64,000 nt of DNA from Bacteroidales bacterium (lineage in GTDB: Bacteria; Bacteroidota; Bacteroidia; Bacteroidales; G3-4614): NCBI GenBank assembly GCA_017559955.1, contig JAFYPQ010000026.1, forward strand, positions 1-64,000, in the 5' to 3' direction. This document shows, piece after piece, positions 48,840 through 54,218 of the stretch; the first letter of the stretch is position 1, and each line of letters begins with the position of its first letter. Below the pieces are notes generated by a model, which searched no databases, was not told where the DNA came from, and worked only from the letters and a program-made list of their open reading frames with translations. The position numbers were made by a program, and so were the translations under genes.

Positions 48840-48935
48840 GGTAACTAAGACAGCTAAGGTGGCTGTGGTAACTAAGCATTATTCCCTTAGTTATCTTAGC
48901 CACCTTAGTTACCTTAGCCAACTAACAACTAACAA
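48840..48935. repeat. Inverted array of 9-base repeats plus heptamers between convergent genes
   Basis: Units of exactly nine bases run without a break from 48841: gtaactaag, acagctaag, gtggctgtg, gtaactaag, cattattcc, cttagttat, cttagccac, cttagttac, cttagccaa. The second half is the reverse complement of the first, so a ~27-base imperfect hairpin forms around cattattcc. AACTAAC heptamers follow up to the next gene's stop. It may serve as a terminator for the convergent genes. Confidence 0.75.
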
Positions 48936-50743: not shown

Positions 50744-50831
50744 ACTTAGTTTTCAACTTCGTTGCCCCTTTGGGGTAGTTTTTAGTTGTTAGTTTAAACG
50801 GAGTTGCACCTCAAGATGCGATTCAGTTATT
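50744..50831. repeat. Heptamer repeat with CCCC-TTTG-GGG hairpin after DUF5009
   Basis: GCCCCTTTGGGGTAG followed by TTTTTAGTTGTTAGTTT. An almost identical block (GCCCCTTCGGGGTAG, with TTTTTAGTTGTTAGTT) occurs at 54087-54140, so this is a dispersed intergenic element. Confidence 0.6.
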
Positions 50832-50903
50832 CTTATTAACTTAGTTGTCCTAATTATCCTACACATCTTAGTTACCCTAGTTATCTTCGTTCACTTATAC
50901 CCT
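50832..50903. repeat. Eight-unit 9-base tandem repeat (YTAGTTAYC type)
   Basis: Units: cttattaac, ttagttgtc, ctaattatc, ctacacatc, ttagttacc, ctagttatc, ttcgttcac, ttataccct. Shares its core with the inverted array at 48840. Confidence 0.65.
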
Positions 50904-50964: not shown

Positions 50965-50972
50965 TAACTTTG
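50965..50972 (+). promoter_or_regulatory. -7 element of the structured RNA
   Basis: TAACTTTG matches TAnnTTTG exactly; transcription would begin near 50979. No -33 TTTG at the normal spacing. Confidence 0.5.
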
Positions 50973-50978
50973 TCGAGC

Positions 50979-51271
50979 ATATCGTTAGCAGAAACCCGAT
51001 ATGGGTTATGTGGGCGGGTGTGTTTTTTTGTTATTAAAGCGTTTACTTACGCACATTCTTGGTTTTTCGAAACTTCGCAACTTTCAACCAATATCAAGAA
51101 TGAAGCAATGGTAGATGCCTAAGTGGATATGTTTTTGCAGTTGTGTATTCTTATACACAACAAATTTTACATATCAGCGTGAGGTTTCTGCGTTGCTCGT
51201 TCTATGATTGGTGGGCAGCGAAGGCCTCGAAAAGCGGGATGAGCAACAGTACAGGCTCTCACGCTTTTTTT
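50979..51271 (+). ncRNA. Putative ~290-nt structured RNA, unknown family
   Basis: No ORF of useful size spans this stretch, but nested inverted repeats do. Early: CATATCG (50978-50984) can pair with CGATATG (50997-51003), competing with AACCC/GGGTT (50993-51007). Hairpin A: ATTCTTG (51055-51061) with CAAGAAT (51095-51101), inner TTGGTT/AACCAA. Hairpin B: GATATG/CATATC (51126-51175) enclosing a perfect GTTGTGTAT/ATACACAAC. Hairpin C: AGCGTGAG (51176-51183) with CTCACGCT (51258-51265), enclosing GTTGCTC/GAGCAAC, followed by a T run. The last helix is a Rho-independent terminator. It could be a stand-alone sRNA or a long leader controlling the CsgG-like genes. I could not match it to 6S RNA, SRP RNA, tmRNA, RNase P or a known riboswitch. 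Confidence 0.6.
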
Positions 51272-51279
51272 ATGTATGC

Positions 51280-51301
51280 CGCCATTAGTGGGCCGATGGC
51301 G
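51280..51301 (+). promoter_or_regulatory. Small 5'-UTR hairpin before the first CsgG-like gene
   Basis: CGCCAT (51280-51285) pairs with ATGGCG (51296-51301), 25 bases before the start codon; it could modulate translation after the RNA terminator. Confidence 0.4.
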
Positions 51302-51325
51302 AGGAAATAATAAAACATATCAAAG

Positions 51326-51805
51326 ATGAAAACAAAAATTTTTCTATTAGTTGCATTAATCGCATTACTTCCTGTATGTGCATCGGCTCAGTTTTATAAA
51401 ATTAAAAAAGTAGCCATAACAGAAGTTGTTGACAGAAGCAGTGATGGCGAATTAAGTGAAGGAACAAAAACCTTTATCCGCAGTGCTTTAACCGATGCCA
51501 TAACCAATTCTGAAGGTTACGAAGGTTATGCCACAATCAGTTTTACAGCACTTGACGTAAACTTTTCTAAAACAGGAAATATCTCATCGATAACACTAAC
51601 ACATGTACGAAAACAGATGATGGAGTATATCCTTGTCTCAGAGGTTACACCATTAAGTAAAACTACAGCATTGTTGAGTGCTCGTATAATACGTACATCT
51701 GACGGAAAAATAGTAGCATCATCATCACAAGAAACATCTGCCGATATCGACTACTTGCGTAGTGCATGTAACAGCCTTGCATATAAATTGGTGGGAGCAA
51801 TTTAA
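51326..51805 (+). CDS. Secreted CsgG/LpoB-like protein, paralogue 1
   Basis: 159 residues; signal peptide ~1-21 (PVCASAQ). The mature sequence VAITEVVDRSSDGELSEGTK, FIRSALTDAITNSEGYEGY and MMEYILVSEVTPLSKTTALL, with SARIIRTSDGKIVAS, has the alpha/beta pattern of CsgG/LpoB/FlgO-type periplasmic domains. It is the first of four paralogues in a row. Nucleotide similarity to paralogue 3 is high near both ends, so duplication is fairly recent. It has no lipobox, unlike paralogue 2. Likely periplasmic; function unknown. Confidence 0.7.
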   Translation: MKTKIFLLVALIALLPVCASAQFYKIKKVAITEVVDRSSDGELSEGTKTFIRSALTDAITNSEGYEGYATISFTALDVNFSKTGNISSITLTHVRKQMMEYILVSEVTPLSKTTALLSARIIRTSDGKIVASSSQETSADIDYLRSACNSLAYKLVGAI

Positions 51806-51952: not shown

Positions 51953-52396
51953 ATGAGAGCAAAACTCTTTCTATTGGTTATAATGGTTGCATTATTATCA
52001 TCGTGTGCAACAATACAAAATAGCGAACCAAAAAAAGTAGTTATAACCGAGGTGGTAGATGCAAGTGGAGAAGTAAGTGAAGGAACAAAAGATTTTATAC
52101 TTAATGCCTTAACCGATGCATTAAAAAGAACTGAAACTGAGGGTTACGATGTATATACAACATCTCCAATTATCGACCAAACACTGCAACCACAAATAGA
52201 TTATATACTTACAACCAAAATAACCTTATTATCTAAAGAAACCGTTTTATTGAGAGCCGAAATAGTAGAAGCATCAACAGCAAGAATCGTATCATCATCA
52301 TCAGTATCGGCACGAGCCGATATAAAATATATGCGTGAGGCAAGCAAAGAATTAACAAATAAGTTGATTTCATCTCTCAAAAAGCAAGTAAAGTAA
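51953..52396 (+). CDS. CsgG/LpoB-like lipoprotein, paralogue 2
   Basis: 147 residues. Unlike its neighbours it has a lipobox (LSSC, Cys ~18), so it is membrane-anchored. Shares KKVVITEVVDASGEVSEGTK, ILNALTDALKRTETEGYDVY and DYILTTKITLLSKETVLLRA with paralogues 1 and 3, but lacks about 10 residues of the central loop. 21 bases separate it from paralogue 3, so these two and the FISUMP gene probably share a transcript. Confidence 0.7.
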   Translation: MRAKLFLLVIMVALLSSCATIQNSEPKKVVITEVVDASGEVSEGTKDFILNALTDALKRTETEGYDVYTTSPIIDQTLQPQIDYILTTKITLLSKETVLLRAEIVEASTARIVSSSSVSARADIKYMREASKELTNKLISSLKKQVK

Positions 52397-52417: not shown

Positions 52418-52891
52418 ATGAAGATTAAATTTATTCTATTGGTTGCATTATTTGCATTATTGCCATTAAGTGTAACTGCACAATTTTATAAAGCAAAAAA
52501 AGTAGCCATAACCGAAGTTGTAGATGCAAGTGGAAAAGTATCCGAAGCGACAAAGAAACTTTTTCGTACTACATTAATCGATGCAATAACAAACTCAGAA
52601 AGTTATGAGGCATATACTCAAATCAGTTTTGTGTCGTTAGAATTAAACTTCGATAAAACAGGCAACATCGCATCCTCAACATTCGAGTATGTAAAACAGC
52701 AAGAGATGTCGTACATTCTTGTCTCAAAAATATCTCCTATTGGTAAAAATTTACTTTTACTGAGTGCCCAAATAATAGAAACCTCAACAGGCAAAATAGT
52801 AGCATCATCATCAGTAAACACAAATACAAAATCAAGTAGTTTGCGAAAAGCATCAAAACAACTATCAAATAAATTGCTAAACTCAATCTAA
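52418..52891 (+). CDS. Secreted CsgG/LpoB-like protein, paralogue 3
   Basis: 157 residues; signal peptide ~1-21 (LSVTAQ). Closest to paralogue 1 (QFYKAKKVAITEVVDASGKV, LIDAITNSESYEAYTQISFV, SYILVSKISPIGKNLLLLSA). Followed after 23 bases by the fourth, longer member. Function unknown; the family's known members (CsgG, LpoB, FlgO) form or regulate envelope assemblies. Confidence 0.7.
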   Translation: MKIKFILLVALFALLPLSVTAQFYKAKKVAITEVVDASGKVSEATKKLFRTTLIDAITNSESYEAYTQISFVSLELNFDKTGNIASSTFEYVKQQEMSYILVSKISPIGKNLLLLSAQIIETSTGKIVASSSVNTNTKSSSLRKASKQLSNKLLNSI

Positions 52892-52914: not shown

Positions 52915-54069
52915 ATGTTACGTAAAAACTATTTTTCATTACTACTAATTACATTATTTATCATCTTACCTTGTGGCTCTCAAGCACAAGGATTAAGAAT
53001 ATTTGCCAAGCAAAAAGTTGTAATAGCCGACATAATGGATCGTAACGATAGGCAATTGGATCCCGGAACAAAATCATTTATATTGCAATCGTTTAAAGAT
53101 GCATTTGTAAACTCCGATAATTATGAGGTTTTTGAAGTAAATTTAGATGATATAAAGCGACAATTAACCTCTTCAGGTAAACAATTTAGTTTCCCTAATA
53201 TCTGTAAAAATATAGGTCAGAGTGCCGATTATATAGTTTTTACGGAAGTTGAGCTTACAACAACAGACCTTAGAGCTAACGGACAAAATGTAGAACTAAT
53301 TTTTACCTCTTCGCTTTATAGAATATCAACAGCATCAAAAGTAATGTCAGATGTTGTTAAGACAGAAGCAACAGAAGAATCGGTCAGATCTGCAGTTTCT
53401 GAACTTATATCAAAATTATTAGGCGAAAATTTATCATCTAAAAAGCAATCAAATCAACAATCATCAGGATATAGTTCAAACAACTATAATAATGGTTATT
53501 CCAACACCCAGTCGTATGTCGAGAATGTAAGCAATAAAATCAACGGTCACGAATACGTTGATTTAGGCTTATCTGTAAAGTGGGCAACTTGTAACATTGG
53601 GGCCAATTTCCCCGATAACCCAGGAAAATATTATGCGTGGGGCGAAACATCAACAAAAGTAATGTACATAGAAATGAATTCGATAACTTATCAAGTGATG
53701 AATATGGGAGACATAGCTGGAGATTCAAGATATGATGTGGCTCGAGCAAGTTGGGGCGGAACTTGGAGGTTGCCTACAAAAGAAGAGTTTGAAGAATTAA
53801 TAAATTGTTGTACGTGGGAGTGGACAAAGCAAAACGGAGTAGATGGTTATAAAGTAACCAGCCGTTATAATGGCAAAAGCATATTCTTGCCTGCTGCCGG
53901 CATCCGCTACGACTCTTCGTTGAACAATGCAGGATCGTTCGGCTACTATTGGAGTTCTTCGCCTAACGGGAGCAGTTCTGCTTTCAACCTCTACTTCTTT
54001 AGTTCAGCGTACAAGGTGGATTGGGACCTTCGCTACTACGGTCGTAGTGTGCGTGCCGTTTGCGAATGA
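52915..54069 (+). CDS. CsgG/LpoB-like domain fused to FISUMP domain, paralogue 4
   Basis: 384 residues; signal peptide ~1-24. Residues ~30-170 are a divergent copy of the CsgG-like domain (KVVIADIMDRNDRQLDPGTK, FKDAFVNSDNYEVFEVNLDD, SADYIVFTEVEL). A Ser/Asn/Tyr-rich linker (~175-205) joins a FISUMP/DUF1566-type C-lectin-like domain (~209-384: YVDLGLSVKWATCNIGANFP, ASWGGTWRLPTKEEFEEL, GYYWSSSPNG, GRSVRAVCE). FISUMP domains occur in many surface proteins of Bacteroidota and Fibrobacter. The last ~190 bases are about half G+C, clearly richer than the rest of the gene, suggesting recombination into the C-terminus. A terminator follows at 54172. Confidence 0.78.
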   Translation: MLRKNYFSLLLITLFIILPCGSQAQGLRIFAKQKVVIADIMDRNDRQLDPGTKSFILQSFKDAFVNSDNYEVFEVNLDDIKRQLTSSGKQFSFPNICKNIGQSADYIVFTEVELTTTDLRANGQNVELIFTSSLYRISTASKVMSDVVKTEATEESVRSAVSELISKLLGENLSSKKQSNQQSSGYSSNNYNNGYSNTQSYVENVSNKINGHEYVDLGLSVKWATCNIGANFPDNPGKYYAWGETSTKVMYIEMNSITYQVMNMGDIAGDSRYDVARASWGGTWRLPTKEEFEELINCCTWEWTKQNGVDGYKVTSRYNGKSIFLPAAGIRYDSSLNNAGSFGYYWSSSPNGSSSAFNLYFFSSAYKVDWDLRYYGRSVRAVCE

Positions 54070-54086
54070 TTTTAAACGAGTTTAAA

Positions 54087-54150
54087 ATCAGTTTTTAGTT
54101 GTTAGTTGTCGGCACAAGTGCCGCCCCTTCGGGGTAGTTGTTAGAATAAC
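54087..54150. repeat. Second copy of the dispersed heptamer/hairpin element
   Basis: TTTTTAGTTGTTAGTT, the hairpin GGCACAAGTGCC and GCCCCTTCGGGGTAG. Matches the block at 50760-50800 and, in part, the hairpin at 25732. Confidence 0.6.
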
Positions 54151-54171
54151 ATAAATCACTTATAATTTGCC

Positions 54172-54218
54172 AAAGGTTGTAACGTAATAGTACGCGTTAC
54201 AACCTTTGATGTTTTTTA
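54172..54218 (+). terminator. Terminator after the CsgG-FISUMP gene
   Basis: AAAGGTTGTAACG (54172-54184) pairs with CGTTACAACCTTT (54195-54207), followed by GATGTTTTTT. Confidence 0.85.

Follow-up and report, generated by a model that had tools for sequence, protein, structure and literature searches.

On the forward strand of the window, the whole 64,000-nucleotide stretch of a Bacteroidales contig that was analysed, a -7 promoter box of the Bacteroidota type is followed by a large structured RNA and then by the gene for a 159-aa exported protein (Table 1). This protein is weakly FlgO/CsgG-like (Pfam FlgO E = 0.0011, under the gathering score) and belongs to a tandem row of four exported proteins, of which it is the first; three of the four are weakly FlgO-like. 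Its paralogues are encoded at 51953-52396, 52418-52891 and 52915-54069.

A preliminary description of the region had reported the -7 box, two clean hairpins (51054-51102 and 51126-51175) and a long final helix that encloses an inner helix and ends in a T run, and had taken the whole for a structured RNA. All of these parts are present in the sequence. The structure was corroborated by folding (z = -5.96; none of 200 dinucleotide shuffles was as stable) and by covariation among 58 homologues. The preliminary description had also found no reading frame that explains the region, and we agree: the only ORFs have 50 and 55 aa and start with TTG or GTG. A coding origin was rejected on this ground and because the pattern of changes is that of base-pair compensation. 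A DNA-level element is disfavoured, since the frequent G-U pairs in T2 in one orientation favour RNA. The limits first given to the element (50965-51271) proved too narrow: the features inside them are confirmed, and the hairpin at 51280-51301 belongs to it as well.

The 5' domain P1 holds a GAAACCC/GGGTT stem and an outer GCAUAUCG/CGGGUGUG stem, and its conservation across the family is poor. Two early stems had been proposed to compete here. AACCC/GGGTT is kept in the three nearest relatives through changes from A-U to G-U, while CATATCG/CGATATG is broken in one of them; because of this break and of the variability of the domain, the competing stems are weakly supported.

In the full-length minimum-energy fold, the U-rich stretch 51018-51035 pairs with AUAAUAAAACAUAUC (51307-51321) just before the start codon. 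In this model the pairing is possibly the version that the window copy has of the closing helix P0 discussed below. Degenerate 18-nt repeats of the AGTTATCTTAG/CCTTAGTTACC type were found at 50825-50891 and 48885-48920; they are intergenic, upstream of the leader promoter and after an efflux operon.

Table 1. Parts of the RNA in the window and the gene behind it
Feature	Position	Strand	Partner, basis or remark
Bacteroidota -7 promoter box TAACTTTG	50965..50972	+	Sequence
P1, variable 5' hairpin domain	50977..51022	+	Folding, alignment with three nearest relatives
P2, 5' strand AAGCGUUUAC	51037..51046	+	51111-51120
P2, 3' strand GUAGAUGCCU	51111..51120	+	51037-51046
P3, 5' strand (segment 1) CAUUCUUGGU	51054..51063	+	10 of 10 pairs in window
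P3, 3' strand (start of segment 2) AUCAAGAAUG	51093..51102	+	51054-51063
Loop segment a (UUUUCG)	51064..51069	+	a' CGAAAA, 51228-51233
Mini-hairpin h (GAAA/UUUC)	51069..51085	+	b within its loop
Loop segment b (CUUCGC)	51073..51078	+	b' GCGAAG, 51218-51223
Loop segment c (ACCAAU)	51087..51092	+	c' AUUGGU, 51207-51212; six window pairs
Segment 2, GCAAUG	51105..51110	+	Alternative partner: segment 3 CGUUGC, 51191-51196
P4, variable hairpin (GAUAUGU/ACAUAUC, GUUGUGUA/UACACAAC)	51126..51175	+	Window pairing
T, final hairpin	51176..51265	+	T1 AGCGUGAG 51176-51183 / CUCACGCU 51258-51265; inside it T2 GUUGCUCGUUC 51192-51202 / GGAUGAGCAAC 51237-51247
Loop of T	51207..51233	+	c' 51207-51212, b' 51218-51223, a' 51228-51233
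Mini-hairpin g (GGC/GCC) in loop of T	51214-51216/51224-51226	+	
Segment d (GGCUC), 3' arm of T1	51254..51258	+	d' GGGCC, 51290-51294
U run directly abutting T1	51265..51271	+	Intrinsic-terminator anatomy
D, hairpin past the U run (CGCCAU/AUGGCG)	51280..51301	+	d' in its loop
First downstream gene, 159 aa, exported, weakly FlgO/CsgG-like	51326..51805	+	ORF listing

Covariation in the core fold

The 67 named pairs gave, in the alignment of 58 homologues, a covariation score of 0.375, versus 0.216 in shuffled alignments and at most 0.116 with slid pairs, and none of 500 shuffles matched the real alignment. There are at least eight conserved helices in the RNA. In the 58 sequences, P2 (helix 1) is paired in 85.8% of the cells, with changes on both sides in six of its nine pairs, and P3 (helix 2) in 76.8%. 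Helix h (helix 4) is 90.9% paired and all four of its pairs change on both sides. The two helices of P4 (6 and 7) are 62-69% paired in the long forms and 86-100% paired in the short ones. The final hairpin T (helices 8 and 9) has 95.8% pairing in T1 and 96.2% in T2, with covariation. The comparison of own with swapped partners gave p = 1.2e-10 for P3 (1:2) and p = 3.5e-11 for T2 (3:4).

Comparison of the sequences demonstrates that the loops of P3 and T are complementary in three segments, a, b and c. Segment a:a' (helix 3) is paired in 91.7% of cells, and all of its pairs change on both sides, with up to six pair types. Segment b:b' (helix 5) reaches 99.5%, with compensatory changes in four of seven pairs; b reads CUUCGCA in most members and CCUCGAA, CUGGUA or GUGGCA elsewhere. 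The per-column percentages for c:c' are low in the MAFFT alignment, where c aligns poorly. An unbiased scan of column pairs independently recovered pairs of c:c', a:a', h, P3 and T2, and c:c' was its best helix (columns 66-70/249-253). In 22 divergent, mostly short members the combined pairing of a, b and c had a mean energy of -39.5 kcal/mol, versus -18.8 kcal/mol with swapped partners, and the own partners were better in all 22.

Topologically, there are two four-way junctions. In one, P3, a:a', T2 and c:c' meet through the strands 1-a, a'-4, 3-c' and c-2; the other is built from the mini-hairpins h and g, joined by the kissing pairs of b:b'. Together, P3 and T would thus resemble a double crossover.

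Distribution of the family and its downstream genes

Homologues were detected by blastn in 20 of 198 related genomes, several of them with more than one copy. A degenerate pattern of the core matched at least 118 contigs of named genomes, which among the matches listed belong to Bacteroidales and to further Bacteroidota, apart from one MAG that carries the label Firmicutes; it was also present in three virus-like contigs. A covariance model (R1), built from 58 diverse members and 246 positions long, found five copies in the genome of the window. It matched 58 of 295 Bacteroidales genomes, 51 of the 243 good-quality ones among them; the genomes sampled were representatives. Four genomes that were searched in depth have 9, 9, 12 and 12 copies (E <= 0.001), weak ones included. 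In a sample of 395 genomes from the whole phylum, two further genomes, outside Bacteroidales, have copies that are weak yet structurally intact (E ~1e-5). The size of the leader varies from about 160 to 330 nt across the family, and the weakest matches of the model are a short form of about 160 nt in which all core pairings are kept.

Weak matches were seen on the opposite strand of true copies (G000:C25:51177-51366 and G000:C45:12665-12839, both on the minus strand). They probably stem from the near self-complementarity of the two hairpins and were left out of the counts. Unannotated copies are found on two plasmids from Phocaeicola species of the human gut, one in P. dorei (L242 4001-4248 in NZ_CP072250) and one in P. 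vulgatus (L243 3001-3248 in NZ_CP096966). Strains with a copy include P. dorei CL06T03C03, where the match in NZ_CP072250 lies at 53937-54184, and P. vulgatus CL10T00C06. Behind the match in each plasmid, on the same strand, a RefSeq CDS for a hypothetical exported protein starts after 64 nt.

The preliminary description could not fit the element to a known RNA, and its stems are indeed conserved in relatives, and Rfam holds no counterpart of it. The covariance models of Rfam 15, among them 6S-flavo, Bacteroidales-1, Bacteroides-1 and Flavo-1, gave no match in the whole window at the gathering score. With E up to 10, the leader region matched only two miRNA models far under threshold. The loci of the other copies in the same genome matched only a tRNA and a sub-threshold miRNA. 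No tRNA or tmRNA was detected, and no description of such an RNA was found in the papers searched. Apparently, this is a large and undescribed family in Bacteroidales.

The association with CsgG-like genes that had been suggested is not specific. When 107 downstream proteins were scanned, no Pfam family occurred more than eight times, BspA-type leucine-rich repeats being the most frequent. Seven of the 107 match TIGR04117, the Cys-Xaa-Xaa-Xaa radical-SAM target family. Other products are outer-membrane barrels, CsgG/FlgO-like proteins, methyltransferases, anti-phage-type helicases, FHA, LytTR and small HTH proteins, and no obvious common signal, pathway or metabolite was found among the genes scanned. 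An envelope-specific regulator was rejected because of this diversity. Signal-peptide-like N-termini are slightly enriched (45% versus 34%, p = 0.04, by a crude heuristic). An association with defence systems was rejected as well, since there were only a few matches to models of methyltransferases and anti-phage helicases.

Two kinds of small gene recur behind the leader. One encodes a Cro/C1-like HTH protein of ~70-90 aa and follows both short and long forms (L157 1501-1666 on the minus strand, L226 911-1064 on the plus strand, L057, L066 and L091); it could be an ancestral or autoregulated partner. The other is found in Prevotella-type genomes and encodes twin-arginine, Cys-rich peptides that resemble the radical SAM target protein TIGR04117 (L056, L064, L073, L130, L133, L136 and L137).

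Several features tie the RNA to the gene behind it. In 121 of 134 members the motif TAnnTTTG occurs in the 220 nt upstream of P2, and its positions peak sharply at -80 to -61; of the downstream control regions, only 11 of 113 contain it. Of 122 loci, 114 have the longest downstream open stretch on the strand of the RNA and eight have it on the opposite strand. Hairpin D is located between the U run and the start codon, and a stem better than shuffled surrounds d' in 85 of 100 members. The distance from d' to the start codon has a median of 25 nt (IQR 20-33.5). Comparison of the sequences also demonstrates complementarity between the loop of D and that arm of T which adjoins the U run. Own d:d' partners beat swapped ones in 103 of 121 loci (p = 1e-13). 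Support in the short forms is moderate (15 of 22, p = 0.028), and the pairing is weak in the window copy (-8.8 versus -8.1 kcal/mol swapped). The d arm overlaps T1, so d:d' and the full T1 are mutually exclusive.

At the level of sequence it is therefore well supported that the RNA is a structured 5' leader acting in cis on the gene directly behind it. The same-strand gene, the near-fixed distance to the start codon and the pairing past the U run all favour this reading. The strongest argument for a single device of leader and mRNA is the covariation past the terminator.

Alternative pairings and possible modes of action

In one of its two options, the preliminary description had placed a switch in the early 5' stems. 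This is probably not the case, as those stems vary greatly; the conserved alternatives are P3 and T versus 2:3 and, in the short forms, P4 versus T1. Strand 2 is demonstrably complementary to strand 3 and could pair with it instead of strand 1. Outside c:c', own and swapped partners of 2:3 differ with p = 1.4e-5, and the column pair 85:236 is CG in 39 members, UA in nine and UG in seven. In the short forms, P4 shares its 3' strand with T1; both helices compete for the GGCGUG strand, and both are conserved. The pairing 1:4, which full branch migration needs, was unsupported (p = 0.53). When the growing RNA of the window copy was folded prefix by prefix, P3 formed first, followed by a shift to 2:3 and a long nested helix as c', b' and a' emerged. 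Since pseudoknots lie outside that model, these folds show only that the alternatives are close. Minimum-energy folding alone gives a nested a-b-c-2:3 helix and not T; for the same reason it was not used to choose between the states.

Anatomy of the attenuator type was found: a GC-rich hairpin, with T1 and T2 about 96% paired, lies directly before a U run upstream of a gene, and the alternatives 2:3 (versus 3:4) and P4 (versus T1) would exclude this terminator. We consider the chances about even that the RNA represents a new family of large structured 5' leaders in Bacteroidales whose action resembles that of a transcription attenuator, supplemented by pairing between loops and by a capture hairpin. 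RNA polymerase would halt at the U run whenever P3 and T have formed and are held together by a, b and c. If strand 2 paired with strand 3, T would be unable to close and the polymerase would read into the gene. In the short forms, P4 would take the strand of T1, leaving T open, with the same outcome. After read-through, D would capture the freed arm of T, the leader would stay open, and the start codon would be presented or access to it controlled. Attenuation itself, with its signal and its direction, is what we infer. A switch is not proved by covariation alone, since either conformation is compatible with the pairs of a, b and c, and D could have no influence on the polymerase at the terminator because it lies after the U run.

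The U run also shows a tendency to pair upstream of P2, with an A-rich stretch (p = 1.5e-4), and may thus be kept for a closing helix, P0, and not as a terminator; the copies in which it is shorter than four (about 8%) also speak against attenuation. In a post-transcriptional reading, which we hold to be somewhat unlikely, read-through would be constant, and the folded leader with its d:d' pseudoknot would gate translation or the stability of the mRNA, perhaps through a protein or small molecule that it binds. The U run would then serve P0, in which it and the UAUGUC after T pair with the A-rich strand that precedes P2. Support for P0 was obtained at the level of individual loci, also in copies that lack a proper U run, such as L052, and the position of D with d' shortly before the start codon and the mutual exclusion of d:d' and the full T1 fit this reading too. 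However, a U run of at least four abuts the GC-rich T1 in 111 of 121 members, more than P0 needs, and P0 is unrecognisable beside the U run of the window copy. Interruptions of the U run by C were not significantly matched by G in the A run (p = 0.15).

The preliminary description had weighed a terminating leader with switch stems against an independent sRNA; our data support the former, while the same-strand gene in nearly all loci disfavours the latter. An sRNA with its 3' end at the U run, acting in trans by means of its 3' arm or loops while the downstream gene is co-oriented by chance, is quite improbable. It would explain the promoter and terminator anatomy and also the many copies found in one genome, a trait of paralogous sRNA families like FopS (PMC11697453), but a trans-acting sRNA should have no fixed relation to the gene behind it, and the near-fixed distance to the start codon and the covariation with a local 5' UTR hairpin contradict this. 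A large riboswitch for a metabolite or ion, with the P2/P3/T core as aptamer, is very improbable: size, pseudoknots, terminator and several loci per genome may fit a riboswitch with a broad regulon, yet the paired segments change freely and the downstream genes indicate no common metabolite. That the RNA belongs to a mobile element or serves as a guide, for example as an omega RNA or a group II intron end, is scarcely credible. Many copies with differing neighbours, some on plasmids and virus-like contigs, could suggest it, but no transposase, reverse transcriptase or nuclease is common downstream, the order and spacing of the genes follow the constraints of a leader, and the copies are old and diverged and have no Rfam match to such RNAs.

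Among known systems, trp-type attenuators are similar in their four segments, where 2 pairs with 1 or 3 and 3 with 2 or 4, and in a 3:4 hairpin that abuts a U run before the first gene. Unlike in these, the loops of 1:2 and 3:4 are mutually complementary, a hairpin past the U run would capture the terminator arm, and no leader peptide was recognised, nor any leader ORF noticed, in the aligned members. Terminator-type riboswitches and T-box leaders are likewise large structured leaders with a terminator and several uses per genome; the RNA described here differs from them in having no Rfam match, no obviously conserved ligand pocket and functionally unrelated downstream genes. OLE, ROOL, GOLLD and raiA/ModT share its large size, elaborate fold and open function; it differs from them as a leader with many copies per genome that matches no Rfam family. 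FopS and GibS of Bacteroides (PMC11697453) are also multi-copy Bacteroidales RNAs with sigma-ABfr-type promoters and a Rho-independent terminator. FopS has ~65-70 nt, a single-stranded 5' seed and one terminator hairpin, and acts in trans, whereas the leader has 160-330 nt (~290 nt in the window), is pseudoknotted and lies in cis.

Surveys from 2010 and 2021 list other Bacteroidetes motifs. One candidate, HMP2_1881 (PMC8040213), is given there as a 108-bp Bacteroidetes element near radical SAM genes, expressed in 13 of 13 occurrences. It could be a fragment of the leader family, since seven of the 107 downstream proteins match the radical-SAM target peptide family. In the accessible part of PMC8040213, no kissing architecture or such leader system is described for the candidates.

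More tentatively than for attenuation as such, we suggest that the leaders form a distinct class of RNA switch. In this class, two hairpins would interlock through their fully complementary loops into a fold like a natural double crossover: a:a' and c:c' would connect two four-way junctions, and b:b' would form a kissing contact. Many unrelated Bacteroidales genes would be preceded by this cis module, which could be freely re-coded, and a post-terminator hairpin would capture the terminator arm.

Bacteroidota dominate animal guts, and to our knowledge very little is known about RNA-based control in this phylum. The leader is present in about one fifth of the sampled Bacteroidales genomes, in up to about a dozen copies each, and has no Rfam entry. 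Its complementary hairpin loops and post-terminator capture hairpin constitute a testable RNA mechanism that is easy to re-code, and experiments on it are within reach because human gut strains of Phocaeicola carry plasmid copies. The family would place surface proteins, lipoproteins, radical-SAM target peptides and some defence-like genes under an additional layer of regulation.
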